A stretch of 64,000 nucleotides of DNA, taken from Zobellia alginiliquefaciens. Its GTDB lineage: Bacteria; Bacteroidota; Bacteroidia; Flavobacteriales; Flavobacteriaceae. Made by a program: the position numbers and the translations under genes. The notes beneath the pieces were generated by a model. It ran no database searches. It saw nothing but the letters and a program-made list of their open reading frames with translations, and had not been told where the DNA came from. The first letter of the stretch is position 1. Each line of letters opens with the position of its first letter. Of the stretch, positions 25,614-40,199 are shown one piece after another. Where the stretch lies: positions 744,001 through 808,000 of the forward strand of contig NZ_CP119758.1 in assembly GCF_029323795.1 (NCBI RefSeq), given 5' to 3'.

Positions 25614-27134
25614 ATGAGCACACAAACAGTTGAACAAGACGTATTACAAAAACCAAAGTTCAAAAGTCAATATGAAAATTATATTGGCGGAAAATGGACA
25701 GCCCCTATGAAAGGTGAGTATTTTGACAACCTTTCTCCTGTAGACGGAAACGTATTCACTAAAATAGCCCGTTCCACATCAGAGGATATAGAACTTGCCA
25801 TTGATGCCGCATGGATCGCCGCTTCCGAATGGAACAGATCGTCAGCAACCACTAGAAGCAATATGCTATTAAAAATTGCCGACGTTATGGAACGTAATCT
25901 GGAGACCTTGGCAAGAGCCGAAACTTGGGACAACGGTAAAGCCATTAGAGAAACCACTGCTGCAGATATACCTCTGGCCATAGACCATTTTAGATATTTT
26001 GCCGGTGTCATCAGAGCGGAAGAAGGCTCCGTCAGCGAATTAGATTCAAACACCGTTGCGTTAAACGTTACCGAACCACTTGGGGTAGTAGCACAAATCA
26101 TTCCTTGGAATTTCCCAATTCTTATGGCCACTTGGAAATTGGCACCCGCATTGGCAGCAGGAAACTGTGTCGTATTAAAACCCGCAGAGCAAACCCCGGT
26201 AGGCATTCTGGTTCTTATGGAACTAATTGAAGGTATTTTACCGGCAGGCGTATTAAACGTTGTAAACGGTTTTGGCGCGGAAGCAGGCAAACCTTTAGCC
26301 TCAAGCCCAAGAATAAATAAAGTAGCTTTTACGGGTGAAACAACAACAGGACAGTTAATCATGCAATATGCATCTAAAAACATTACTCCCGTCACATTAG
26401 AGCTAGGTGGAAAATCACCGAATATCTTCTTTGAAAGCATTATTGATGCCGATGATGATTTCTTTGACAAATGCCTGGAAGGAGCCGTAATGTTCGCACT
26501 TAACCAAGGAGAAGTTTGCACTTGCCCATCAAGAATGTTAGTTCAGGAAAGCATCTATGACCGCTTTATGGAAAGAGTTATAGAACGTACCAAGGCCATA
26601 AAATTAGGTCACCCGTTAGATCCAACAACAATGATGGGTGCACAGGCTTCAAACGACCAATATGAAAAAATTCTCAATTACATTAATATCGGCAAAGAGG
26701 AAGGGTGCGAAGTACTGACTGGTGGAGAGGCGGCCTACAACGAAAGTCTTGAAGGTGGTTATTATATACAGCCTACGATTCTTAAAGGAAACAACAAGAT
26801 GAGGGTATTTCAAGAAGAAATATTTGGTCCCGTAGTTTGCGTTACCACTTTTAAAGACGAAGCCGAAGCCATAGAAATCGCCAATGACACCCTTTACGGA
26901 CTAGGTGCCGGGGTTTGGACCAGGGATACACACCAGGCCTACCAAATTTCCAGAGCGGTCCAAGCGGGTAGGGTCTGGGTAAACTGTTACCACTTGTATC
27001 CTGCTCACGCTCCTTTTGGAGGATACAAAAAATCAGGTATTGGCAGAGAAAACCATAAGATGATGTTAGCACACTACAGACAAACTAAAAATATGCTGAT
27101 TTCATACGATAAAAAGGCCATGGGTTTCTTTTAA
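25614..27134 (+). CDS. NAD(P)-dependent aldehyde dehydrogenase (acetaldehyde dehydrogenase-like)
   Basis: Oxidises aldehydes to acids with NAD(P). The 506-aa protein has the ALDH fold with IIPWNFP near 162-168, the LKPAEQTP cofactor segment, the FTGET Rossmann motif near 239-243, the general base in ELGGKSP (Glu263), and the catalytic Cys302 in NQGEVCTC. The sequence is closest in character to the bacterial acetaldehyde/ExaC-type group that lacks an extra domain. A DUF779 gene follows after a single base and an AraC regulator lies divergently upstream. Together they suggest an inducible aldehyde-oxidation unit. The exact substrate cannot be read from sequence. Confidence 0.92.
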
Positions 27135-27135
27135 T

Positions 27136-27507
27136 ATGAAAACACAAAGAGTTCTAGTTACGGAGGAAGCAAAAAAGGTTATTGAAAGCCTTAAGAAAAC
27201 GCATGGTGAACTTATGTTTCACCAAAGTGGTGGTTGCTGTGATGGCTCTTCGCCCATGTGTTTCAGCAAAGGTGAACTTATTCTGAACGAAACCGATATT
27301 TGGCTTGGCAATATTGCCGATTGTGATTTTTACATGTCTCAAGACCAGTTTGAATATTGGAAACACACCCAGTTAACGATTGATGTGACCAAAGGAAGAG
27401 GTGCCAGTTTTTCTTTGGAAATTCCATTAGGAGTTCGGTTTGTGATAAAGTCAAGGTTGTTTTCTGAAAAGGAAGCCCTAGAATTAGAGCCGGTCCATCA
27501 CGCATAA
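27136..27507 (+). CDS. DUF779 protein linked to aldehyde dehydrogenase
   Basis: A 123-aa soluble protein of the DUF779 family. The hallmark is a Cys-rich GGCCDGSSPMC loop at about residues 35-45, which could bind metal or do thiol chemistry; that is inference. It begins one base after the ALDH stop codon, so the two are translationally linked, and an intrinsic terminator follows. DUF779 is known to occur next to acetaldehyde dehydrogenases in many bacteria, but its role is undefined. It may be an accessory or maturation factor. Confidence 0.88.
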   Translation: MKTQRVLVTEEAKKVIESLKKTHGELMFHQSGGCCDGSSPMCFSKGELILNETDIWLGNIADCDFYMSQDQFEYWKHTQLTIDVTKGRGASFSLEIPLGVRFVIKSRLFSEKEALELEPVHHA

Positions 27508-27537
27508 TAAATAGTAAAATCTTTACACAAAGTTTAA

Positions 27538-27561
27538 AATCCGCATTATAAAATGCGGATT
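27538..27561 (+). terminator. Intrinsic terminator after the ALDH-DUF779 operon
   Basis: AATCCGCATT (27538-27547) pairs with AATGCGGATT (27552-27561) around an ATAA loop, followed by TTTTTATTTG. It lies 30 bases after the DUF779 stop. Confidence 0.92.
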
Positions 27562-27640
27562 TTTTATTTGGTGATCATAAGTTTTCAGATAAATCTATTC
27601 ATCAAATAGTTGTATTTTTACGTCTCTAAATCTCATTATA

Positions 27641-27874
27641 TTGGCACTTACATTAAAAAAAATCATGATAGCTCCTTTCGTATTTTTAGTTAGGTTTTAT
27701 CAACTCGCCATCTCTCCTTATACACCTGCAACGTGCCGCTACTCCCCTACTTGCTCACAATACACCTTAGAAGCTTTAAAAAAACATGGCCTATTTAAAG
27801 GAGGTTGGTTAGCTATTAAACGTATATTTAGCTGTAATCCATGGGGAGGGAAAGGTTACGACCCAGTACCTTAA
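27641..27874 (+). CDS. yidD: YidD, membrane protein insertion efficiency factor
   Basis: A 77-aa protein thought to assist YidC-dependent membrane insertion at the inner face of the membrane. It has the family signature [21 protein letters not shown] with three conserved Cys, then [13 protein letters not shown] and the C-terminal [13 protein letters not shown]. The length is normal. The start is uncertain: a non-ATG start near 27641 keeps the usual N-terminal LKKI segment, while the first ATG is at 27665. It lies upstream of lgt on the same strand. In this genome it is not next to rnpA or yidC within the window. Confidence 0.93.
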
Positions 27875-28010
27875 ACCATTAAAACAAGTTCAATTTATAT
27901 TGATTGGCATGCTCTCTACTGATCGTTAAAATTTATAACTACGATTTAAGATATAGGAAAGCCTAACGGCTATCTATTTTATTATCTTAGTGCCCTTAAA
28001 ACTCCTTAAC

Positions 28011-28973
28011 ATGTACTTTTTAGGTATTATCTGGAATCCGAATGAAACCCTTTTTTCTCTCGGTCCGTTACAGATCAAATATTACAACTTACTTTGGATT
28101 ACGTCTTTTGCTCTAGGTTGGTATATCATGAAACGTATTTTCACCAATGAAAATAAAACTGTAGAGCAATTAGATTCGCTTTTTATCCATACAGTTCTGG
28201 CTACAATGTTAGGTGCACGGTTGGGGCATGTTTTCTTTTATGACTGGCCATATTACAAAAATCACCTGCTAGAGATATTGCTGCCTATTCGAGAGAGTGC
28301 GTCAGGGCAACTCTTTGGTTTTATTAACGGCTACGAATTTACCGGCTTTACCGGTCTTGCCAGTCATGGCGCCATTATTGGGGTACTGATAGGCACGTAT
28401 CTATACCAAAAGAAGTATCCAGATATGAAAACCCTTTGGCTACTGGACCGTATGGTAATTCCGTTTGCAATTGGAGCATTTTGTGTGCGATTGGGCAACT
28501 TTTTCAATTCTGAAATTAACGGAAAAATCACTGACGAATCTTTTATTTTCGCCACAAAATTCATTCGTGATTCAGACGATATGCATCCGTCACAAGCATT
28601 AGCCATTACTCAAGAAAAGACTTTAAGTGTGGCGTATGATGCTTTAGAAAACAATCCTCAGTTTGCCGATCAGTTGGCTCAGATTCCTTTTCGCCATCCA
28701 GCACAATTGTATGAAGGGGTCGCTTACATCTTTGTATTTGTTCTCCTTTACTACCTCTACTGGAATACGGATAAACGAAACAACTCAGGCTACCTTTTTG
28801 GTCTGTTCCTTGTATTGCTTTGGACCATACGTTTCTTCGTAGAATTTGTAAAGAAAAGTCAAGGTGGTTTCGAAGAAAGTCTTGGACTGCTTTCAACCGG
28901 ACAGTGGTTAAGTATTCCGTTCATTCTAATTGGTCTTTATTTCATGTTTAGGCCAAAAGTTGCAAAATCATAA
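28011..28973 (+). CDS. lgt: Phosphatidylglycerol-prolipoprotein diacylglyceryl transferase
   Basis: Adds diacylglycerol to the lipobox Cys of prolipoproteins in the inner membrane. The 320-aa multi-pass protein contains GARLGHVFFYDW, the periplasmic RLGNFFNSEINGK signature segment with its essential Arg and Asn, and HPAQLYEG. The ATG at 28011 is chosen over a GTG at 27990 because it gives the usual short N-terminus before the LGPLQIKYY segment. The window encodes many predicted lipoproteins, including the giant one at 30480, that would be substrates. A DUF192 lipoprotein gene follows 103 bases downstream. Confidence 0.95.
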   Translation: MYFLGIIWNPNETLFSLGPLQIKYYNLLWITSFALGWYIMKRIFTNENKTVEQLDSLFIHTVLATMLGARLGHVFFYDWPYYKNHLLEILLPIRESASGQLFGFINGYEFTGFTGLASHGAIIGVLIGTYLYQKKYPDMKTLWLLDRMVIPFAIGAFCVRLGNFFNSEINGKITDESFIFATKFIRDSDDMHPSQALAITQEKTLSVAYDALENNPQFADQLAQIPFRHPAQLYEGVAYIFVFVLLYYLYWNTDKRNNSGYLFGLFLVLLWTIRFFVEFVKKSQGGFEESLGLLSTGQWLSIPFILIGLYFMFRPKVAKS

Positions 28974-29076
28974 TTAATATTGATTTTCTTTTACGACTGA
29001 AAACTAAAGTCGGTGTTTTGACAATGAGCAAAACACTTCATTTATCATCGACTTTTTAAACGTAAGCGATACTAAA

Positions 29077-29565
29077 ATGAAATACTTAAAAAATTATTTG
29101 TATTTGACCATTGCCATGTTTCTGTTCAATGGATGTAAAGAAGAATCAAAAAAAGTAATTAAAGCAGAACCTGTGGTCTTTAAAAAAGAAGGAGAACTGT
29201 CCATCTTTAAAAAAGAAACCGATAGCGTTATTGGTTCTTTTGATATAGAAATTGCAGATAGCGAATATGAAACCCAAACTGGTCTGATGTACAGGAAGAG
29301 CATGAAGGTGGACCGAGGTATGTTATTTGTTTTTCCTGAAGTTGCAGGGCATTCATTTTATATGAAGAATACGGAGTTCCCCTTAGACCTTATTTTCATT
29401 AAGGAAGATATGACCATTGCCAATTATCACGAAAATGCACAACCCATGAACGAGTCTAGCCTACCTTCACAAGGTGCCGTTCAATATGTTCTAGAATTGA
29501 ATGCTGGTCTGGTTCAAAAATTAGGTATCCAAACAGGAGACAGTATAGCTTACAAAAAAATGTAA
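29077..29565 (+). CDS. DUF192-domain lipoprotein
   Basis: A 162-aa lipoprotein with a signal peptide ending in FNGC (Cys20). The DUF192 domain spans about residues 55-160. Its hallmarks are QTGLMYRKSMKVDRGMLFVF, SFYMKNTEFPLDLIFI and the AVQYVLELNAG strand near the end. The function of DUF192 is not established. It lies between lgt and the GNAT gene, which begins six bases after its stop codon, so the genes are probably one operon. Confidence 0.88.
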   Translation: MKYLKNYLYLTIAMFLFNGCKEESKKVIKAEPVVFKKEGELSIFKKETDSVIGSFDIEIADSEYETQTGLMYRKSMKVDRGMLFVFPEVAGHSFYMKNTEFPLDLIFIKEDMTIANYHENAQPMNESSLPSQGAVQYVLELNAGLVQKLGIQTGDSIAYKKM

Positions 29566-29571
29566 TTTTAA

Positions 29572-30090
29572 ATGGATTTGCTTTTGGAGGGAGAAAACAC
29601 CGAACGATTGGTATTCCGAAAAGTACTCCCCTCTGATTTTGATACATGGCTGCCCTTTCATGAAGATAAACGGTCTTCAGAATTCTGGAAAGGATTACCG
29701 AGCGACCCAAAAATTGCTTGTCGGCAACAGTTTGATCACATATTTGAACGGTATGAAAACGGCTTGGGTGGTATGAATGCCCTAATTTTAAAATCAACTG
29801 GAGACTTAATTGGCTTATGCGGACTTCTTAAGCAAAATGTAGATAACATAGAAGAACTAGAAATAGGCTATTCCATCCTACCAAAATATTGGAAACAAGG
29901 TTATGCCTCCGAAGCTGCTAAAAAATGTAGAATGCACGCACGAAACAATCGTTTAGCTCCTTCCTTAATTTCCATAATCCACATAGACAACATCCCTTCT
30001 CAAAGAGTAGCTATGAATAATGGCATGCATTTAGAGAAAATTACAACCTATCATAACAATCCCGTATATATTTTTAGAGTGCAATTATGA
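29572..30090 (+). CDS. GNAT-family N-acetyltransferase (RimJ/RimL-like)
   Basis: A 172-aa acetyl-CoA-dependent acyltransferase. The fold is indicated by LVFRKVLPSDFD at the start, then LIGLCGLLKQN, the EIGYSILPKYWKQGYASEAAK acetyl-CoA-binding segment, and the late IDNIPSQRVAMNNGM motif typical of RimJ/RimL relatives. Its TGA stop overlaps an ATG as ATGA, the start of a 17-codon stub of an ABC-ATPase gene, showing that the two were translationally coupled before the insertion at 30141. A diverged copy of its last codons occurs at 35725-35847. The substrate is unknown. Confidence 0.88.
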   Translation: MDLLLEGENTERLVFRKVLPSDFDTWLPFHEDKRSSEFWKGLPSDPKIACRQQFDHIFERYENGLGGMNALILKSTGDLIGLCGLLKQNVDNIEELEIGYSILPKYWKQGYASEAAKKCRMHARNNRLAPSLISIIHIDNIPSQRVAMNNGMHLEKITTYHNNPVYIFRVQL

Positions 30091-30123
30091 CACAAAAACA
30101 TTGGGCTATATTTACTGCCAATA
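29986..30123. repeat. Left copy of the diverged GNAT/ABC junction duplication
   Basis: This segment aligns without gaps to 35743-35880. It covers the last GNAT codons, the shared ATGA and the first ABC codons. I count about 103 identities in 138 aligned bases (75%), mostly third-position and conservative changes, so both copies evolved under protein constraint before or after they were brought together. Confidence 0.85.
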
Positions 30124-30140
30124 CATCTCACATAAGATGA
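30087..30140 (+). pseudogene. 17-codon 5' stub of a double-ABC ATPase gene
   Basis: The reading MTQKHWAIFTANTSHIR, then stop, starts at the ATG that overlaps the GNAT stop codon. It matches the first residues of the intact ABC ATPase at 35844 (MTPKHWAVFTANTSQKG) and ends abruptly in unrelated AT-rich DNA. It is the broken-off beginning of the gene that originally followed the acetyltransferase. Nothing functional is expected from it. Confidence 0.8.
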
Positions 30141-30305
30141 TTTGATATAAAACATGAACATTCCCCTTTTTCCATGGAACCTTAAAAACTGAATGCAGGA
30201 ATGTTTTCTTTTTAAAATGAATTCTCTGAATATCACAGTTATTCTATTGGTAGTAATGATAAACGGTATGAGCTCAAAATACACAGTATCAATAAATCCC
30301 ATATT

Positions 30306-30373
30306 CCCTTACATCCATCTTATCCATAAATTATACGTTTCATCGATAGTTGGGTCCAAAATGGATGTAAGGG
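30306..30373. repeat. 13-base inverted repeat upstream of the giant lipoprotein gene
   Basis: CCCTTACATCCAT (30306-30318) is the exact reverse complement of ATGGATGTAAGGG (30361-30373). The 42-base spacer contains, on the minus strand, a TTG followed 21 bases later by TATAATTTA, loosely like a Bacteroidota promoter. It could be a hairpin, an operator pair or a very short invertible segment. Confidence 0.6.
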
Positions 30374-30403
30374 TATCTATAATTTAAACCGATTCCATAT
30401 CTT

Positions 30404-30435
30404 GTAGGACTTTCTTGTTAAAAAGAGAGTTCTAC
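30404..30435 (+). repeat. Imperfect hairpin in the leader of the giant lipoprotein gene
   Basis: GTAGGACTTTCTT (30404-30416) pairs with AAGAGAGTTCTAC (30423-30435), with two G-U pairs and a six-base loop. It lies 45 bases before the ATG at 30480 and would form in the 5' untranslated RNA. It has no T-tract, so it is not a terminator. Confidence 0.45.
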
Positions 30436-30479
30436 CGTTTACGGTGTTTAAAAAAAAGAATCGATAGTCCCTCGGAAAA

Positions 30480-33400
30480 ATGAAGAAGTACCTTAAGGTT
30501 TCAGTCTGCTGTTTCAGTCTTTTTTTAATAGCGTTGGCGTGCACCAAGGAGGTGGGCCTTATCACCGAGGTGGAGTTCGAGCTTACCGAGCAGCACACTG
30601 CGGAAGGCTTCGTGAACCAAGGGCTTCCCAGTACATTTACGATCGTACCGGAAGAGGTACTGGAGGACTACGAGTACAATATCACCTACGAGATACTGGA
30701 TGGCGAGGGCCATTTCGAGGATATGGAGGGCAACCCCTTGGAATCCGGAAAGGGATGGTCCATGCCCACGGGACTTAGCGCCCCACTTCTGTACAAGGGT
30801 TCCGCAACGGGGGAGCACAGGGTAAGGATAACAGGGGCCGACAACTTCGGCATCTCGGAGGATATCGAGGTCATGTACGAGCTTTCCGATGTCCCGGTGG
30901 TCTGGGAGGCCTCGAGCGAACTCTCACAGCTCGAACTTGAAAAGCCTGTAGCGCTTTCCCTTCTGTTGGAAACGGACGAGGCCTCGCAGGACGTGGACTA
31001 TGAGGCCATCTACGGGTTCGCTTCGGGCTCCGGGAGCCTTGAGCCGTCCGAGGAGAACGGCTATGCCCCGAACGGGGAATATGGTCCTATCTCGGCAGGT
31101 ACCTATCCCCTTGTCTTTACACCTTCCGAACTGGGGCCACAGCGATTGGTCTTCACCCTTAGGGACAGTAACGGCCAGGAAATAGAAACGGGACTGGACT
31201 TCAACGTTTCCGAGTTCATCGAGGTGATCTCCATAACCCTTTCGAGCCAGGATACGATAAAGATGAAACTGGGGGACGAGATACCCCCGGCCTTCGTTTT
31301 CGAACCGTCCAACGCTACCGACCAAGAGGTAACGGTGGTCTCCAGTGATCCCGATGTCGTATTCATCGACGAAAACAACGTTTGTATCGCGGTCGGGCTG
31401 GGTACGGCCCAGGTTACCGTTACCTCGGTCTCCAACCCCGATGCTAGCGACACGGTCACCGTAGAGGTGATCCCGCCGGACAGGGTACCGGTAACGGGCA
31501 TCACCGTTTCCCAGGAGAATCCCGGGGCCACGGGAGCGCAGCGCCAACTGGTGGCCGCGGTCCTTCCCCAGAACGCCACGGACCCGAGCGTGACCTGGTC
31601 CTCCGGTGACGATACGATAGCATCCATAGACGATAACGGCCTTCTGACCGGTCTTTCCGCGGGAACGGTGACGATAACGGCCACTTCGGTCTCCGACCCG
31701 GACGTGACGGGAAGCGTCATAGTGGAGATCACCGGTGTATCGTTGTTGTCGGCCAACGATATTGAGGCCTTCGCCCTGAACGGACAGATAGAGACCGCAA
31801 CGATAGACCCTTCCGCCCATATCGTTTCGGTGACCGTTCCCGAGGGTACGCTACTGAGCGTAGCACCTATTATGCTGACGGTATCGGAAGGGGCCACCGT
31901 AGAACCGGGGCTTCTACAGGCACGGGACTTCGGTTCCCCTGTTCAATATACCGTCACCTCGGGCAACGGTACAGAGCAGGTATGGACGGTGACCGCCAGT
32001 GTACTGACCATTCCGGTGGTGGGCGGTAACGACATCCTCGCTTTCGAGCTGCCCGGACAGAACGCTTCGGACATAGATACGGACAACCGTACCGTAACGG
32101 TGAACGTGCCAGATGGTACGGACCTGAACGTAGCGCCGAGCGTAATGGTCGTTTCACCGGACGCCACGGTGGACCCTGCGATAAATATTGTTAGAGATTT
32201 TTCGAGTGCCGTTACCTATACGGTCACCGCGGAGAACGGAACGCAACAGGAGTGGACCGTGAACGTGACCGTTTCCGCCCCGACGGGAAGCGATCAGAAC
32301 GCAATAACGGCCTTTGAGTTCCCGGGCCAGACCGATGTGGATATCGATGGAACAACCAATACGGTCATCGTTACGGTTCCCGATGGTACCAACTTGAATA
32401 CGGCCCCTTCGGTATTGAATATTTCCCCCAATGCTACGGTGACTCCCGCGATAGGGGATATACAGGATTTTAGCCAACCCGTAGCGTATACGGTCACCGC
32501 TGAAAATACTGATGAAAGAGTTTGGACGGTCAACGTTACCGTTACTGAAAACCAAGCACCTATCGCCAATGATGATACAACCGCAGTAGAATTGGGAGAA
32601 ACCGTACGCATCAATGTCATCGATAACGATTCAGATGTTGATAATCCAAATTCCGATCTGGTTATATCTGGTGTTCTTGGGGTACAACCTGAAAATGCAG
32701 GTTCGTTTACAATCGATGGTCAGGAAATCGTATTCACCAGTTCCGGTGATTATACCGGGGATGCCACGTTCGGCTATACCATTAACGACGGTAACCCGGG
32801 CAATGACGATTCTGCAGTAGTGACTGTAACAATAGCCCCACAAGCGAACGCAGCCCCTTTAGCGGATGCCGGTCCCGACCAGGCCATTACCCTTCCCACG
32901 AGTTCGGTTACCCTGGACGGTTCCGGAAGCAGTGATACCGCCCCCGGAACGATCGCCTCGTACGCTTGGACACAGGTCAGCGGTCCCACAACGGCGACGA
33001 TTGCTGCCCCGGGGAGCGCGAGTACCTCGGTAACGGGCTTGACGGAAGGAAACTATACGTTCAGGCTGACGGTGACCGACGATGGGACCCCGGCACTCAG
33101 CGATACGGACGATATCGTTATAACGGTGGGGGCCTTGCCCAACGTAGCTCCCGTAGCGGATGCCGGTCCGGACCAGGCCATTACCCTTCCCGCGAGTTCG
33201 GTAACGTTGGACGGTTCTGGAAGCAGCGATACCGCCCCCGGAACGATCGCCTCGTACGCTTGGACACAGGTCAGCGGTCCCACAACGGCGACGATTGCTG
33301 CCCCGGGGAGCGCGAGTACCTCGGTAACGGGCTTGACGGAAGGAAACTATACGTTCAGGCTGACGGTGACCGACGATGGGACCCCGGCACTCAGCGATAC

Positions 33401-35477
33401 GGACGATATCGTTATAACGGTGGGGGCCTTGCCCAACGTAGCTCCCGTAGCGGATGCCGGTCCGGACCAGGCCATTACCCTTCCCGCGAGTTCGGTAACG
33501 TTGGACGGTTCTGGAAGCAGCGATACCGCCCCCGGAACGATCGCCTCGTACGCTTGGACACAGGTCAGCGGTCCCACAACGGCGACGATTGCTGCCCCGG
33601 GGAGCGCGAGTACCTCGGTAACGGGCTTGACGGAAGGAAACTATACGTTCAGGCTGACGGTGACCGACGATGGGACCCCGGCACTCAGCGATACGGACGA
33701 TATCGTTATAACGGTGGGGGCCTTGCCCAACGTAGCTCCCGTAGCGGATGCCGGTCCGGACCAGGCCATTACCCTTCCCGCGAGTTCGGTAACGTTGGAC
33801 GGATCTGGAAGCAGCGATACCGCCCCCGGAACAATCGCCTCGTACGCTTGGACACAGGTCAGCGGTCCAACAACGGCGACGATTTCCGCCCCGGGGAGCG
33901 CGAGTACCTCGGTAACGGGCTTGACGGAAGGAAACTATACGTTCAGGCTGACGGTGACCGACGATGGGACCCCGGCACTCAGCGATACGGACGATATTGT
34001 TATAACGGTGGGGGCCTTGCCCAACGTAGCTCCCGTAGCGGATGCCGGTCCGGACCAGGCCATTACCCTTCCCGCGAGTTCGGTAACATTGAACGGTTCA
34101 GGAAGTAATGATACCGCCCCCGGTACAATCGCCTCCTACGCCTGGGCGCAGGTCAGCGGTCCCACAACGGCGACGATTGCCGCCCCGGGGAGCGCGAGTA
34201 CCTCGGTAACGGGCTTGACGGAAGGAAGCTATACGTTCAGGCTGACGGTGACCGACGATGGAACCCCGTCCCTTAGCGATACGGACGATATTGTTATAAC
34301 GGTGGGGGCCTTGCCCAACGTAGCCCCTGTAGCGGATGCCGGTCCCGACCAGTCCATCATCTTGCCTACGAGTTCGGTAACATTGAACGGTTCAGGAAGT
34401 AATGATACCGCCCCCGGTACAATCGCCTCCTACGCCTGGGCGCAGGTCAGCGGTCCTACAACGGCGACGATTGCCGCCCCGGGGAATGTGAGTACCTCGG
34501 TAACGGGCTTGGCGGAAGGAAGCTATACGTTCAGACTGACGGTGATGGACGATGGAACCCCGTCCCTTAGCGATACTGACGATATTGATATAACGGTGGG
34601 GGGCTTGCCCAACGTAGCTCCCGTAGCGGATGCCGGTCCGGACCAGGCCATCGCCCTTCCCGCGAGTTCGGTAACGTTGGACGGATCTGGAAGCAGCGAT
34701 ACCGCCCCTGGAGCGATCGCCTCCTACGCCTGGTCACAGGTCAGCGGTCCAACAACGGCGACGATTGCCGCCCCGGGGAGCACGAGTACATCGGTAACGG
34801 GCTTGGCGGAAGGAAGCTATACGTTCAGGCTGACGGTGACGGACGATGGAACTCCGGCACTCAGCGATACGGACGATATCATCGTTACTGTCGAAGCCTT
34901 AGTTCAGACACTAACATTAACTTCTGTTGATGTTAGCTATAATACAAACATAACCTCAACAGAGTATTTATCTGGTGGGCCTGGAGAATTGTGGGAAGAT
35001 TATGAAAAACATGAAATTAGCTCTGTAGAATTAGTTATTTCCAATGTAATTTCATCGAATAATAACTTAAATTACTTGTATATAGATGGAGTTAGATTCA
35101 ACTACAACGATACCGGAATTATTAAACCAATAGCAGGGTTTTTATCCAACAATGAAACTGGCCACTATGAAATGCAATTTGGATTTCCTCAGTTACTTGA
35201 TATAGAAAATGATTTCACCGATTCAGGTATTATGGAATATAGAAAGTCAAGAGCTGGAACTCCTAATATTATTACAATTCAAATAGAAGATACTAACGGA
35301 ATATTAAGTAATATAATTCAAGTAAATACACCTTCAAATTATGGGTTTAAAATAAGAGTTCATGAAACGCCATATACACCAATAGGAGGATTGTTTCCAA
35401 TGACGAAAAGGGTTAAGGTTGATGGTATTTTACAAACACCATATATTGAGGGGATATACAAATATGTGGATTTCTAA
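30480..35477 (+). CDS. Giant multi-domain Ig-like surface lipoprotein, GC-rich and repeat-bearing
   Basis: A 1665-aa predicted outer-membrane lipoprotein (lipobox ALAC, Cys21). Domain order: an N-terminal beta-rich region (22-240); two Ig-like group 2 (Big_2-like) domains (about 249-335 and 337-420); three DUF5018-like modules of about 90 aa, each with VP(D/E)GT and ending in xWTV (about 425-690); a cadherin/VCBS-like module (about 692-788) starting QAPIANDD; seven 98-aa PKD-like repeats (790-1475); and an unrelated 190-aa C-terminal domain (1476-1665). No T9SS sorting domain is present. Codons are GC-rich up to about 34900 apart from the VCBS region, then AT-rich. This suggests an acquired, mosaic adhesin-like protein that projects its C-terminal domain from the cell surface. 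It replaced the direct GNAT/ABC junction. Confidence 0.85.
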   Translation: MKKYLKVSVCCFSLFLIALACTKEVGLITEVEFELTEQHTAEGFVNQGLPSTFTIVPEEVLEDYEYNITYEILDGEGHFEDMEGNPLESGKGWSMPTGLSAPLLYKGSATGEHRVRITGADNFGISEDIEVMYELSDVPVVWEASSELSQLELEKPVALSLLLETDEASQDVDYEAIYGFASGSGSLEPSEENGYAPNGEYGPISAGTYPLVFTPSELGPQRLVFTLRDSNGQEIETGLDFNVSEFIEVISITLSSQDTIKMKLGDEIPPAFVFEPSNATDQEVTVVSSDPDVVFIDENNVCIAVGLGTAQVTVTSVSNPDASDTVTVEVIPPDRVPVTGITVSQENPGATGAQRQLVAAVLPQNATDPSVTWSSGDDTIASIDDNGLLTGLSAGTVTITATSVSDPDVTGSVIVEITGVSLLSANDIEAFALNGQIETATIDPSAHIVSVTVPEGTLLSVAPIMLTVSEGATVEPGLLQARDFGSPVQYTVTSGNGTEQVWTVTASVLTIPVVGGNDILAFELPGQNASDIDTDNRTVTVNVPDGTDLNVAPSVMVVSPDATVDPAINIVRDFSSAVTYTVTAENGTQQEWTVNVTVSAPTGSDQNAITAFEFPGQTDVDIDGTTNTVIVTVPDGTNLNTAPSVLNISPNATVTPAIGDIQDFSQPVAYTVTAENTDERVWTVNVTVTENQAPIANDDTTAVELGETVRINVIDNDSDVDNPNSDLVISGVLGVQPENAGSFTIDGQEIVFTSSGDYTGDATFGYTINDGNPGNDDSAVVTVTIAPQANAAPLADAGPDQAITLPTSSVTLDGSGSSDTAPGTIASYAWTQVSGPTTATIAAPGSASTSVTGLTEGNYTFRLTVTDDGTPALSDTDDIVITVGALPNVAPVADAGPDQAITLPASSVTLDGSGSSDTAPGTIASYAWTQVSGPTTATIAAPGSASTSVTGLTEGNYTFRLTVTDDGTPALSDTDDIVITVGALPNVAPVADAGPDQAITLPASSVTLDGSGSSDTAPGTIASYAWTQVSGPTTATIAAPGSASTSVTGLTEGNYTFRLTVTDDGTPALSDTDDIVITVGALPNVAPVADAGPDQAITLPASSVTLDGSGSSDTAPGTIASYAWTQVSGPTTATISAPGSASTSVTGLTEGNYTFRLTVTDDGTPALSDTDDIVITVGALPNVAPVADAGPDQAITLPASSVTLNGSGSNDTAPGTIASYAWAQVSGPTTATIAAPGSASTSVTGLTEGSYTFRLTVTDDGTPSLSDTDDIVITVGALPNVAPVADAGPDQSIILPTSSVTLNGSGSNDTAPGTIASYAWAQVSGPTTATIAAPGNVSTSVTGLAEGSYTFRLTVMDDGTPSLSDTDDIDITVGGLPNVAPVADAGPDQAIALPASSVTLDGSGSSDTAPGAIASYAWSQVSGPTTATIAAPGSTSTSVTGLAEGSYTFRLTVTDDGTPALSDTDDIIVTVEALVQTLTLTSVDVSYNTNITSTEYLSGGPGELWEDYEKHEISSVELVISNVISSNNNLNYLYIDGVRFNYNDTGIIKPIAGFLSNNETGHYEMQFGFPQLLDIENDFTDSGIMEYRKSRAGTPNIITIQIEDTNGILSNIIQVNTPSNYGFKIRVHETPYTPIGGLFPMTKRVKVDGILQTPYIEGIYKYVDF
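32847..34904 (+). repeat. Seven in-frame 294-bp tandem repeats
   Basis: Units start at 32847, 33141, 33435, 33729, 34023, 34317 and 34611, each exactly 294 bases (98 codons), with the motif ADAGPDQ and later SYAWxQVSGP. Units 2 and 3 appear identical at base level, unit 4 has a few changes, and units 5-7 share other variants (NGSGSND, GSYTF). Each unit encodes one PKD/Ig-type beta domain. The near-identity points to recent expansion or gene conversion, and to likely copy-number variation. Confidence 0.95.
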
Positions 35478-35721
35478 CCGCTATTTTTATAAGTTTAGCG
35501 ATATCTTAAAAAAGGTAACACTATATAATTAGAACAGAAAGCATATTTTGTAGGATTTTATTTAGAAATGTTTATCATTTCGCACATCTTTCTAAAGTAA
35601 TATTTCGAAGATACTGATAAAATTAGATAATTCATACCACTAAAATATTACCTACAACGCTATGTTAGTGACGTTTTATTAAATGTAAAATCAATGTGCA
35701 AAAAAACTTTTGATCTATTAA
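35478..35721. other. AT-rich non-coding segment after the giant lipoprotein gene
   Basis: No gene, tRNA or clear terminator is seen. A CGCTA/TAGCG five-base dyad sits just after the stop codon but lacks a proper T-tract. The segment is AT-rich, like the host genome and the gene's own C-terminal codons. It ends where homology to the acetyltransferase gene begins. Confidence 0.5.
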
Positions 35722-35724
35722 ATA

Positions 35725-35847
35725 GTTTCTATAATTCAGGTAGATAATATTCCATCTCAAAAGGCAGCCCTAACCAACGGAATGTATTTAGACAAAACCA
35801 CTATATACCATAACAATATTGTACATATTTTTAGAGTTCTTTTATGA
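35725..35847 (+). pseudogene. 3' fragment of a GNAT acetyltransferase gene
   Basis: An open frame (stop codon at 35719-35721) reads SIIQVDNIPSQKAALTNGMYL and continues to IFRVLL, matching the last 40 or so residues of the intact acetyltransferase at 29572 (SIIHIDNIPSQRVAMNNGMHL to IFRVQL). The TGA at 35845-35847 overlaps the ABC ATPase ATG as ATGA, the same coupling seen at 30087. The 5' three-quarters of the gene are missing. It is the right-hand half of the duplicated junction. Confidence 0.85.
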
Positions 35848-35880
35848 CACCAAAACATTGGGCCGTTTTTACGGCTAATA
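35743..35880. repeat. Right copy of the diverged GNAT/ABC junction duplication
   Basis: Partner of 29986-30123 (about 75% identical, no gaps). Here it is the ABC side that continues into an intact gene, while the GNAT side is truncated. The two copies bracket the 5.7-kb segment with the giant lipoprotein gene. Confidence 0.85.
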
Positions 35881-37085
35881 CTTCACAAAAAGGAGAACTG
35901 ATTACAGCGCTTCTACAAGGACCACTTCCCGAGGGTTTTTATGAGCTGAAAAACCTAAAGGGTGCCCTAATGTCCAAATTGGCCGTTGAGCGCTTTATTG
36001 ATATAGAAGACCGCCATGAGGCTAAAATAATTACTTCGAATTCCGATCAAAGTTTAAAATCTATGTCTAGCGGTGAACAGAAAAAAGCGCTGTTAAAACA
36101 TATTTTGAGTTCAAATCCTGATTTTATAGTACTAGACAATCCTTTTGACAACTTGGATACAACTTCACAAGAGGACCTTAAAATAACACTTCAGAAAGTT
36201 TCTGAACATACTCCCATAGTGCAATTATTGAGTCGTAAAACGGATCTCTTGCCTTTTGCCAATACTTTCGCAAAACTGGAGGGTAAGGATTTATTTTTTC
36301 ACGAGAGTGTCAGTTCACTTTCCGATAATACGTTAAAAGACCATTTTCAAGGAGATATACCTAAACCTATCAACTCTTATAAAATTGACGAAGAAACTTT
36401 AATCGCGTTAAAGAACGTGGGGGTCTCTTACAGTGAAAAGCTGATTTTACATGACATTAATTGGACGATTAAAAAAGGTGAGTTTTGGGAATTAAGAGGT
36501 AGAAATGGTAGTGGAAAAACAACCATACTCTCTATGATAACCGGAGAAAACCCAAAAGGCTACGGACAAGAACTCTATATTTTTGGACGCAAAAAAGGAA
36601 CTGGTGAAAGTGTTTGGGAAATAAAAAAACGAATAGGCTATTTCACCCCTTCAATGACCGATAAATTTACAGGCTATCATTCCGTAAGCCATATGATTAT
36701 TTCGGGGCTTAACGACTCTATTGGACTTTACATTCAACCTACCGAAGCGCAACTTAGACTTTCCAAAGAATGGCTTAAGTTAATTGGATTATGGGATATG
36801 AAAGATGAGCTATTCCATGATTTGTCCATGGGTCAAAAAAGATTGATTATGTGCGCTAGGGCCATGATAAAACACCCTCCACTGCTTATTCTTGACGAGC
36901 CCACTGCGGGACTAGACGATGACAGTGCTTCTTTGTTTGTTGCTCTGGTAAACAAGTTTGCCACCCAAAGCGACACTACGGTCATCTTTGTATCACACAG
37001 GAAAGAACCCGGTCTTGAAGCGGAATGCATTTATCAATTAGAGAAGTCTGATACAGGTTCAACTGGGAAAGTGTTAACTACGTAG
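35844..37085 (+). CDS. Soluble double-ABC ATPase with degenerate first domain (ModF/PhrA-like)
   Basis: A 413-aa ATPase without membrane helices. The first ABC half (1-180) keeps the SSGEQ signature at 75-79 and Walker B FIVLD at 94-98, but the Walker A position reads GPLPEGFYEL and lacks the GKS/T, so it probably cannot bind ATP normally. The second half is complete: Walker A GRNGSGKTT at 219-227, signature LSMGQ at 317-321, Walker B LLILDEP at 337-343 and H-loop His375. The arrangement resembles ModF/PhrA-type ATPases of uncertain role. Its ATG overlaps the stop of a GNAT gene remnant, showing ancestral coupling to an acetyltransferase. Confidence 0.85.
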   Translation: MTPKHWAVFTANTSQKGELITALLQGPLPEGFYELKNLKGALMSKLAVERFIDIEDRHEAKIITSNSDQSLKSMSSGEQKKALLKHILSSNPDFIVLDNPFDNLDTTSQEDLKITLQKVSEHTPIVQLLSRKTDLLPFANTFAKLEGKDLFFHESVSSLSDNTLKDHFQGDIPKPINSYKIDEETLIALKNVGVSYSEKLILHDINWTIKKGEFWELRGRNGSGKTTILSMITGENPKGYGQELYIFGRKKGTGESVWEIKKRIGYFTPSMTDKFTGYHSVSHMIISGLNDSIGLYIQPTEAQLRLSKEWLKLIGLWDMKDELFHDLSMGQKRLIMCARAMIKHPPLLILDEPTAGLDDDSASLFVALVNKFATQSDTTVIFVSHRKEPGLEAECIYQLEKSDTGSTGKVLTT

Positions 37086-37131
37086 CGCCTATCTATTATC
37101 ATAAAAAACAAGACATTCGTCAAATACAAAA

Positions 37132-37153
37132 GCCGATTGCATATGCAATCGGC
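37132..37153. terminator. Bidirectional intrinsic terminator
   Basis: GCCGATTGCAT (37132-37142) and ATGCAATCGGC (37143-37153) form a perfect dyad, flanked by an A-run and CTTTTAT. It separates the convergent ABC ATPase and secDF genes. Confidence 0.88.
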
Positions 37154-37205
37154 CTTTTATATTAATTGAGTTAGTTAGTTCTTAACTCTTCAAATATAGA
37201 GAAAT

Positions 37206-40199
37206 TTATTTTACTTCCTTGGTTTCCGGCTCAACTGTACTATTTTCTAGTCCGCCTGCTTTTGAAGACTTGTTCAATGTATCGAACATTACAGGGGTTG
37301 CAATGAACAATGATGAATATGTACCTACAATAACACCAATTATCATAGCGAACATAAATCCTCTTAATGATTCTCCACCGAAAATAAATATCGCCAATAA
37401 TACTACCAAAGTAGTCAAAGACGTATTTAATGTACGGCTCAATGTACTGTTCAATGCCAAATTAATATTGTCGCCACCGCGCCATCCTTTCTCACCGATA
37501 ATCTCACGAATACGGTCAAACACAACCACGGTATCATTCAACGAATACCCAATTACCGTTAATATAGCCGCGATAAAAGCTTGGTCAATTTCCATATTGA
37601 AAGGCATTATGGTTCCAAACAATGAGAATATACCCAACACTATCATCACATCATGGAAAACAGCTGTTACTGCTCCTAATGAGAATTGCCATTTCTGGAA
37701 ACGCAACAAGATATACAAGAACACCACTGCCAACGACCCTAAGATTGCCAAGAAGGCATTGTTCTTAATATCATCTGCTATTGTTGGTCCTACTTTTACA
37801 GATTGTAAAATACCAATTGACTTATCTCCCGAACCACTTACAAAGCTCTGTTCACTAATACCGTCTGGCAAATATTTCTGTAAAGAAGTATAAAGCTTAT
37901 TTTGGATTTCATTATCCACTTCAATACCTTCCACATCCACTTTGTAAGGTGTAGTAATCTTAATCTGATTAGATTCACCAAACGTCTTCACGTTGGTTCC
38001 ACTACCAAACACTTCATTTAACTCAGAGGCTATTTCAGATGGGTTAACAGACTGTTCAAAACGAACTTGATACGAACGTCCTCCTATAAAATCAACTCCT
38101 TGTTGTAACCCTTTTGTAGCCAAAGAGAAAACACCAATACCCACTAAGATAGCAGAGAATATATAAGCAATCTTTCGTTTTGAAAGAAAGTCGATATTAA
38201 TATTCTTGAATAATCCTTTTGTAATAGCGGTAGAAAAATCCAATGAACGCCCTTTGCCATCAATATACCAATCTACCAATAGACGTGTAATAAAGATAGC
38301 CGTGAACAATGAAGTTACAATACCGATAAGTAAAGTAGTTGCGAAACCTTTAATTGGACCCGAACCGAATATAAATAAAATGATTGCAGTAAGGCCTGTG
38401 GTTATGTTCGCATCAAGAATAGAAGAAAGCGCGTTTCCGAAACCATCTGCAACAGCTAATGATTTCCCTTTTCCTTTAGCTAATTCTTCTTTAATACGCT
38501 CAAAAATAAGTACGTTCGCATCCACGGACATACCAATGGTAAGAACGATACCTGCAATACCTGGCAAGGTCAATACCGCACTTAAGCTGGTAAGAACTCC
38601 GAATATCAATAAAATGTTCAATAGTAAAGCGATATCCGCGAAAGCACCTGCTTTACCATAATAGAAAACCATCCATACCAATACGATTGCCATTGCAATC
38701 ATGAAGGACATAAAACCACTATCAATAGCTTCTTGACCTAAAGATGGCCCTACAACTTCTGATTGTATAATTTCTGCCGATGCCGGTAACTTACCAGCAC
38801 GCAATACATTAGAAATATCTTTTGTTTCGTTAACGGTAAATGTACCCGTAATCTCTGAACGACCTCCTGAAATAGGCCCAGAAGAAACACCTGGAGCAGT
38901 ATATACTTTATTATCCAAAACAATAGCAATACCTGTTCTATTGGTATATGCATCTCCCGTTAGTTTTTCCCATTCCTTAGCTCCTTTGGTGTTCATGCTC
39001 ATGGTAACTGCCGGCTTACCGTTAACAAACTCATCACGAGCATCACTAACCACATCACCACTAATTCTTGGTGTATTATCCCGGTTAGATTTAAGTGCGT
39101 ACAATTCTGCAATTTCAGAACCCTCAGATGGTCTTTCCCATAAGAACTTTACAAACTGCATGCTTGCAGGAAGTAATCTTCTAATTTCTTTCATTCTAAG
39201 GTACGAACCAATCTCGGCCGTATCTTGAATAGCAGCAACACCTACAGCATAACTAGGCGCGCCTATTTGAAACTTATCGAATAATGGGTTACGCTGTCCA
39301 GAGATGTCCAATGAATCTTGAGAAACGTCCGAAAGAAGGGAATCTAATTCCGATTCTTGCTTAACAGGCTCTTCAATATCATCTACATCAATAAGTGTTT
39401 TCAGTTTTTCATTCGCCTGAAAAAAGAAACCTTGTAATTCAGGATTGTTAGGCTGGTATGTTTCCCAGAACTCTAACTGTGCCGTACTTGACAACAACCC
39501 TTGCGCACGAGCAATATCTCTAGCACCAGGCAATTCTACCAAAATACGACCGGAATTCCCTTCTCTTTGGATGTTTGGTTGTGTTACACCAAAACCATCT
39601 ATACGCTCACGAAGTACTTCAAAAGCAGAAACAATGGATTCGTCAATCTTTGTACGGATGATAGGCTTAACCTCATCATCTGACATCTGAAAATTAACCT
39701 CACCACTCAGGCCTTTATTCGCAAAAATATCTGGAGAAGCTAATTTCGTATCTCCTTTAATTTTGTCAAAAGCATTGAAGAAAAGCTCAATATACGTATC
39801 ATCACTGTCCTTAGAGGCTGCATCGGCATCTGCCAAAGCCTTATTGAAAATAGGATTTTTGGTATTATTTGCCAAACCTTTTAAGATATCCTTTACGGAA
39901 ATCTGAAGGGTAACGTTGATACCCCCTTTAAGGTCAAGCCCTTTGTTCAGCTCTTTCTTTTTGGCTTCGTTGTAGTTGGTGAAACCAAGGATTGAATTGT
40001 CTCCAATTGAATCTAAATACCTAGTCTCTAGCTCATCACGTTTAGAAACATAATTTTCTTCAGCGTCCGAAATGCGGCTTTCCGCATACGCTTTTGCTTC
40101 GTTTTCTACCTTACCTCCTATAAAAGTATAGGATAATTGATAGATACTTACTAGCCCAAAGAGTAGGGCAAAAAGCTTAATAAGTCCTTTATTCTGCAT
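37206..40199 (-). CDS. secDF: Fused protein translocase subunit SecDF
   Basis: Uses the proton gradient to complete Sec-dependent export across the inner membrane. The 997-aa single chain fuses SecD and SecF, each with six membrane helices. The SecD half has the N-terminal helix, LNKGLDLKGGINVTL, an extended periplasmic P1 domain, the VELPGARD motif, and GMSVDANVLIFERIKEEL. The SecF half has GVDFIGGRSYQVRF, GYSLNDTVVVFDRIRE and NTSLTTL. Both conserved Asp positions for proton transport are seen. A fused form is usual in Bacteroidota. The insert between residues 130 and 330 of the P1 region is longer than in E. coli SecD. It follows mdh on the same strand. Confidence 0.96.
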   Translation of the reverse strand: MQNKGLIKLFALLFGLVSIYQLSYTFIGGKVENEAKAYAESRISDAEENYVSKRDELETRYLDSIGDNSILGFTNYNEAKKKELNKGLDLKGGINVTLQISVKDILKGLANNTKNPIFNKALADADAASKDSDDTYIELFFNAFDKIKGDTKLASPDIFANKGLSGEVNFQMSDDEVKPIIRTKIDESIVSAFEVLRERIDGFGVTQPNIQREGNSGRILVELPGARDIARAQGLLSSTAQLEFWETYQPNNPELQGFFFQANEKLKTLIDVDDIEEPVKQESELDSLLSDVSQDSLDISGQRNPLFDKFQIGAPSYAVGVAAIQDTAEIGSYLRMKEIRRLLPASMQFVKFLWERPSEGSEIAELYALKSNRDNTPRISGDVVSDARDEFVNGKPAVTMSMNTKGAKEWEKLTGDAYTNRTGIAIVLDNKVYTAPGVSSGPISGGRSEITGTFTVNETKDISNVLRAGKLPASAEIIQSEVVGPSLGQEAIDSGFMSFMIAMAIVLVWMVFYYGKAGAFADIALLLNILLIFGVLTSLSAVLTLPGIAGIVLTIGMSVDANVLIFERIKEELAKGKGKSLAVADGFGNALSSILDANITTGLTAIILFIFGSGPIKGFATTLLIGIVTSLFTAIFITRLLVDWYIDGKGRSLDFSTAITKGLFKNINIDFLSKRKIAYIFSAILVGIGVFSLATKGLQQGVDFIGGRSYQVRFEQSVNPSEIASELNEVFGSGTNVKTFGESNQIKITTPYKVDVEGIEVDNEIQNKLYTSLQKYLPDGISEQSFVSGSGDKSIGILQSVKVGPTIADDIKNNAFLAILGSLAVVFLYILLRFQKWQFSLGAVTAVFHDVMIVLGIFSLFGTIMPFNMEIDQAFIAAILTVIGYSLNDTVVVFDRIREIIGEKGWRGGDNINLALNSTLSRTLNTSLTTLVVLLAIFIFGGESLRGFMFAMIIGVIVGTYSSLFIATPVMFDTLNKSSKAGGLENSTVEPETKEVK

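Follow-up and report, generated by a model that had tools for sequence, protein, structure and literature searches.

Why should a genome carry the boundary between two neighbouring genes twice, in versions that differ from each other by 25%, with a very large gene in between? The question is raised by a stretch of 64,000 nucleotides from Zobellia alginiliquefaciens (GCF_029323795.1, contig NZ_CP119758.1, forward-strand positions 744,001 to 808,000; hereafter the window), in which the end of a GNAT acetyltransferase gene and the start of an ABC ATPase gene occur at 29986-30123 and again at 35743-35880 (Table 1). As the original prediction had stated, the two copies are diverged and bracket an insert, aligning free of gaps with 103 of 138 bases identical, while the runner-up ungapped place within the window reaches 60/138. 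In a search of the whole genome (5.07 Mb, single contig) at E <= 0.001 the two copies are the sole matches of each other, the second at 1.1e-19, and BLAST lengthens the pair to 165 bp (29966-30130 and 35723-35887, 74.5% identity).

On the left, the GNAT gene is whole and its TGA overlaps the ATG of a short ABC stub; on the right, a GNAT 3' fragment leads through an identical ATGA overlap into the whole ABC gene, and this fragment reaches upstream, in decayed form, to about 35620 upon alignment with the GNAT gene of another Zobellia genome (G001). This architecture, too, had been read correctly. Within the 138 bp, the differences between the copies fall on first, second and third codon positions 4, 7 and 18 times in GNAT and 1, 1 and 4 times in the ABC stub (pooled 5/8/22; chi-square p 0.0009), a third-position bias which indicates that both copies diverged mostly as parts of working genes. 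In agreement with the original prediction, an integrase or transposase is not visible in the list of open reading frames of the window; ARAGORN reports no tRNA in 27000-39000, and none of the 9 pairs of inverted repeats (arms of at least 18 nt) connects both ends of the insert. With all three scans blank for a recombinase gene, a tRNA site and terminal repeats, a transposon or integrative element was rejected as a model.

Table 1. Features of the GNAT/ABC site in the window (positions of the window; G005, sister genome; G006, Z. russellii).
Feature	Position	Strand	Remarks
Intact GNAT gene, 172 aa, own lineage	29572..30090	+	PF13302; 95% aa identity to sister G005
Left GNAT/ABC junction repeat copy	29966..30130	+	BLAST extension of 29986-30123
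ABC stub, 17 codons, retains ATGA overlap	30087..30140	+	Open reading frames and alignments
Spacer	30141..30317	.	In a 639-bp alignment (window 29966-30598), 76% to the middle junction of G008
Upstream region and 5' part of giant gene	30318..32246	+	97.3% to second copy at recG locus of same genome; sharp ends
Giant putative lipoprotein gene	30480..35477	+	TraQ-like head (PF12988), DUF5018, Big_2, Big_9 and PKD domains
Repeat block	32211..34899	+	93% identical to recG-site copy of sister G005
C-terminal 192 aa	34899..35474	+	Self-match only, in 9 Zobellia and 249 family genomes
Decayed, apparently older part of GNAT fragment	35620..35726	+	43-71% to G006 GNAT in 30-column windows
Z. russellii-like patch: GNAT 3' end and first ~45-55 ABC codons	35727..35990	+	Both ends approximate
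Intact ABC ATPase gene, 413 aa	35844..37085	+	nt 180-540 100% identical to sister G005

Apart from overlapping frames, the sole long open reading frame between the copies encodes a giant protein of 1665 aa, the head of which matches TraQ_transposon above the Pfam cut-off (34.4 vs 27). Its first 250 aa retrieve no solved structure at E <= 0.01, and neither head nor C-terminal tip has a match in NCBIfam. The lipoprotein-like start and the Ig/PKD domains suggest that the protein is a variable surface stalk. The C-terminal tip finds nothing besides itself in the nine Zobellia genomes (E <= 0.001) or in 249 genomes of the family (E <= 1e-4), and the tips of the giants as a whole are of several types, distributed irrespective of site and species. 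Seven PKD repeats lie at about 32841-34890; several are nearly identical in DNA with a step of 294 bp, so that a recent expansion is probable.

A second giant is located at 4.77 Mb in the same genome, tail to tail with recG, and shares 1929 bp with the window copy. An imperfect inverted repeat (29-nt arms, 79%) is found in the window at 30293-30386, where the identity between the two copies starts. The order at the recG locus is a DUF4138 gene, a TraO gene and then the giant. The element CTnDOT has the gene order TraN-TraO-TraQ, and the home locus resembles Bacteroidetes conjugative transposons in its order DUF4138, TraO and TraQ domain, recognized with Pfam and NCBIfam in the window's genome (G000) and in a genome of another genus (G033), where all three genes are found by Pfam as well. 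In contrast to these transposons, the TraQ domain stands at the front of a long Ig/PKD protein, the DUF4138 gene matches the NCBIfam TraN model below its cut-off (52.6 vs 164), and the three are the only tra genes seen at the locus. In two further genomes (G222 and G087) the gene order at this operon was judged by eye, and in G033 and G222 the operon adjoins putative genes of leu type. G033 (locus L105) carries two tandem giants there. The recG side, after DUF4138/TraN-like and TraO genes, is regarded as the home of the giant. Among the nine Zobellia genomes (G000 to G008), four have a giant beside recG, namely G000, G005, G006 and G008, the copies of G005 and G008 containing runs of N; the other five have none, and G003 shows a 256-aa gene in its place. 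In G005 a TssD/Hcp gene (PF17642) lies upstream of the TraN-TraO-giant operon, and in G000 and G005 small genes in series, the majority of the tested ones free of Pfam matches, precede the operon and are possibly a type VI secretion effector/immunity island. Further, distant giant-like loci were seen in G007 (contig C13), G003 (0.59 Mb), G005 (3.21 Mb) and G000 (3.66 Mb).

Comparison of the GNAT/ABC site within the genus shows that the window is one case among several. GNAT and ABC are adjacent, with the ATGA overlap intact, in G001, G002 and G004, which are the uninterrupted pairs that the original prediction had proposed to look for in sister genomes. They are separated in G000, G003, G005, G006, G007 and G008, and a gene of the giant family occupies 6/9 sites, as inferred in G006 and G008 across contig ends inside the insert (giant hits below 120 aa were dropped from this survey). 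The head of the window's giant (250 aa) is present at the site in G000, G003, G007 and G008; the site giant of G005 retains the first 78 aa of this head and has no TraQ match, and the contig of G006 shows a giant tail only. At each of the six separated sites GNAT is followed by an ABC-like stub, and a 3' fragment of GNAT precedes ABC. As read from alignments, G000, G003 and G005 have a clear stub; that of the other three is weak and was recognised by eye as internally deleted (G006, G007) or decayed (G008). In a tree of four gene pieces, with the non-Zobellia genome G018 drawn outside, G003 and G007 split from the other seven, and empty sites appear in two places, in G001 and in G002 with G004, the latter pair being sister to the occupied G008. 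This distribution suggests that the duplicated junction is most probably the footprint of an old insertion between GNAT and ABC which was later re-cut by recombination, a reading that we hold with some confidence.

Outside Zobellia, adjacency is the rule. Of 114 GNAT loci found, 80 were kept, and GNAT and ABC are adjacent at 65 of these, separated by a short gap at 4, interrupted at 6 and lacking an ABC gene in the stretch at 5. The same interrupted arrangement throughout the family had been named in advance as an observation that would speak against the proposed import; it recurs within the genus and not within the family. A giant is present at just one of the six interrupted loci (Z. uliginosa DSM 2061), and other cargo, likewise anticipated, lies between GNAT and ABC at 5/80 loci. 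Two Ulvibacterium and one other member of the Flavobacteriaceae (L113, L114, L122) have a 922-aa gene on the minus strand there, which we take to be PEP carboxylase; a 363-aa gene is found in L181 and several genes in L185. A separate draw of 120 genomes of the family gave 21 with a GNAT match (E <= 1e-14). According to lists read by hand, GNAT and ABC are no more than about 85 bp apart in 8 of these, 276 bp in one, 1.2 kb in one and 4.8 kb in G018; they are interrupted in both Zobellia drawn, and in the rest one match is absent or placed elsewhere. Giant heads outside Zobellia reach at most 44% identity to that of the window among 299 family genomes, save G018 (76%).

The scars at the site point to exchange with the recG locus. 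Between giant and GNAT fragment lies the 3' end of recG, over about 450 bp in G007 (tblastn E 3.7e-70), 315 bp in G006 and 114 bp in G003. The piece of G007 is 87% identical to recG of G006 and 72% to its own, which indicates a russellii-like lineage as source; the piece of G003 (89% to G002, 89% to G006, 71% to its own recG) is likewise foreign though less well placed, and that of G006 is 88% identical to its own recG. G006 and G007 share one recG/GNAT joint, and that of G003 is different. Conversely, the recG locus of G006 contains some 150 ABC codons that run into giant sequence, as well as a GNAT fragment. These joints (recG/GNAT in G006 and G007 and in G003, ABC/giant at the recG locus of G006) are non-homologous and adjoin homologous giant sequence; the homologous side and the non-homologous joint may have formed in one event. 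With respect to the giants themselves, near-identical copies are found at the two sites in two genomes, the first 750 bp being 98% identical in G000 and, for one of two site copies, 93% in G008, while giants of different Zobellia species are 66-79% identical over this stretch (G005 is too fragmentary for this comparison and the heads of G006 are unseen). The repeat block of the window, in a comparison that dropped pairs below 82% or 150 bp, matches the recG-site copy of G005 over 2692 bp. On the other hand, the first giant at the GNAT/ABC site of G008 is just 73% identical to the other two copies of that genome, so that conversion between sites is not general.

The right fragments are likewise heterogeneous. 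In a junction-copy tree covering 16 of 17 copies (the short rightmost one of G008 was omitted), those of G003, G006 and G007 group with the middle copy of G008 in a single clade (95/97), and that of G005 is shorter, of another type and grouped with the scar at the recG site of G006 (100/100), from which it follows that right sides arose more than once. A rival reading is a Campbell-type integration, in which an excised or incoming circle with the giant and one GNAT/ABC junction fragment would have entered an empty junction by a single crossover, making both sides in one step and leaving repeats that permit excision and tandem arrays. The order of the pieces fits such an event exactly, the three empty sites keep an intact overlap, and the G008 site shows three junction copies around two apparently tandem giants, although across a contig gap inside the first giant. 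A circle has not been observed, however, the right fragments differ in their 5' ends and recG joints, and the two giants of the G008 site are as dissimilar as stated above; this route is held to be unlikely.

The preferred reading, an old and re-cut insertion, also accommodates the 25% difference between the copies in the window, which would reflect overwriting of the right copy by a Z. russellii-like patch of about 265 bp. Over its last ~115 columns the right copy is 92% identical to the GNAT gene of Z. russellii (G006) and 71% to its own left copy; in 30-column windows the match to G006 rises from 43-71% for starts before 35716 to 80% at start 35716 and to 86-100% from 35731. The first three 60-nt windows of the ABC gene are 95/90/87% identical to G006 and 67/60/92% to sister G005, before own-lineage sequence follows. 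Both switches are sharp, with breakpoints near 35727 in the GNAT fragment and between nt 120 and 180 of the ABC gene. In the sequenced G006 a giant lies between the GNAT and ABC parts of this stretch, so the donor likely had an empty site, with GNAT and ABC probably still contiguous. The patch looks to be placed on an apparently older, shared scar: the stretch 35620-35726 is 60-66% identical to four other right copies and 34-36% to the G005 and G006 recG-site copies, though at 72% to GNAT of G001 and 68% to that of G006 it stands apart from the other right copies. The tree places the whole right fragment of the window with the GNAT gene of G006 (88/94), and a 6-bp gap shared with G003 is weak as evidence. 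The mosaic could have arisen in an unsampled donor that also gave the giant its unique C-terminus.

The original prediction had explained the locus by a single homeologous recombination, through which a related genome supplied the operon with the giant and the divergent flank belonging to it. One part of this proposal stands, as a divergent flank did enter by homologous recombination, visible in the Z. russellii-like right copy and the switch within the ABC gene; that the giant travelled with it does not follow. The 5' 1.9 kb of the giant is 97% identical to the own recG copy and the repeats match the recG-site copy of the sister, so that the sequences of own lineage extend through both, the foreign tract is short and abuts a decayed GNAT piece, 6/9 Zobellia sites are similarly scarred, and the site of sister G005 is also occupied with a different right side. 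The lack of a recombinase in the list of open reading frames agrees with such an import, a donor of both C-terminus and flank is conceivable as the genomes searched contain no source for the C-terminus, and G018 resembles an event of this kind in another genus. Overall, a single import is nevertheless rather improbable.

G018, assigned by its label to another genus, deserves attention since it appears to have acquired the cassette together with the scars. DUF192 of G018 is 65% identical to that of G007, and its GNAT gene is 53-78% identical up to codon ~102 and then switches to 86, 92, 88 and 100% by window. The spacer with the same deleted ABC stub (92-94% to G007) and about 2 kb of giant follow, the latter with 81% identity at the start, 64-77% over about 450 bp and 86-95% until homology ends. 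Downstream, a 40-bp recG tail scores 42-55 against five tested Zobellia recG genes versus 30 against its own, and a decayed GNAT fragment outscores 200 of 200 mononucleotide shuffles against G001, G003 and the middle copy of G008; against the fragments of G006 and G007 or its own GNAT it does not exceed all 200. In an earlier shuffle test the GNAT and ABC pieces had scored within or barely above the shuffles (30 vs a maximum of 27, for one target) and recG 48. The ABC gene of G018 has no Zobellia-like 5' tract. These data are best read as transfer from a Zobellia by crossover inside GNAT, the right crossover being not located; an independent, vertically inherited case, considered earlier, was overturned by the GNAT switch, the spacer and the shuffle comparison of the GNAT fragment. 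The chimeric GNAT gene (G018:C18:57104-57607) has an in-frame TAA and may be a pseudogene.

If a transposable element had long ago duplicated its target site and the two copies had since decayed where they lie, this would account for a long direct repeat on both sides of the insert, but such a history is highly improbable and, as simple decay of an old duplication in general, contradicted by the bias to third codon positions, the 92% match of the right copy to another species' GNAT and the mosaic ABC gene, as well as by the lack of a transposase-like reading frame, tRNA or terminal inverted repeats in the scans, in line with the original prediction.

Returning to the old insertion re-cut by recombination, a copy of the recG-side giant, accompanied in some lineages by a 3' piece of recG, would have entered where GNAT and ABC overlap, leaving the ABC stub to its left and the GNAT fragment to its right. 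We infer that a single ancestral event made both stubs, and that DNA uptake and one-sided joints were involved. Subsequently, the site would have been reshaped by gene conversion between the copies at both sites, by homologous or one-sided (homology-facilitated illegitimate) recombination with other Zobellia DNA and by cassette transfer through crossovers in flanking genes; in the window's genome, the russellii-like junction sequence would have overwritten the right copy. The observed joints can be accounted for by homologous recombination in the flanks and in the giants, supplemented by occasional illegitimate joining. The first duplication may have come from an illegitimate joint of this kind, from a single-crossover circle or from template switching. 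A bolder and doubtful view is that of an integrase-less mobile surface-antigen cassette (ABC stub, giant, optional recG tail, GNAT fragment) that might enter, amplify at and leave the GNAT/ABC site via its own junction pieces and RecA, and swap heads, stalks and C-terminal tips with the TraN-TraO-TraQ home operon across genera.

The processes involved are already known, and the two-site system is unusual. A minimal mobile element, reportedly defined by Saunders and Snyder in 2002, is a site at which a given pair of genes encloses, from relative to relative, different cargo or no cargo at all. The GNAT/ABC site conforms to this, being empty in 3/9 Zobellia and filled by other genes at the five loci mentioned, with one cargo family within Zobellia. 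Among the papers listed in literature searches for like systems only analogues were seen, and in searches by name no paper combined TraQ, TraO and DUF4138 or paired Zobellia with TraQ. The term is used in Neisseria (PMC1538595). Such elements share with the GNAT/ABC site optional cargo between two conserved genes and spread via flank recombination, whereas in Zobellia the flanks are partly duplicated and one protein family is the cargo in all six occupied sites. Homology-facilitated illegitimate recombination and the type VI secretion effector-immunity arrays of Vibrio cholerae (PMC5361080, PMC3240628) offer a possible parallel, with one homologous end, one non-homologous joint, retained ends of displaced genes and no integrase; Zobellia differs in having two chromosomal sites that trade one giant family, with neighbour pieces at either. 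In Helicobacter pylori, babA/babB similarly represent two loci of related surface-protein genes that recombine with each other, unlike Zobellia, where the exchanges are marked by scars of neighbour genes and one cassette is found in another genus.

Cumulatively, the two sites show legibly how very large repetitive surface genes can be moved around by bacteria with no transposase, since the transfers leave scraps of neighbouring genes (GNAT, ABC, recG) that often reveal the source site and the donor lineage. One-sided recombination thereby becomes testable in marine Flavobacteriaceae, and a conjugation-type TraN-TraO-TraQ module has apparently been reused as a carrier of variable giant stalks.
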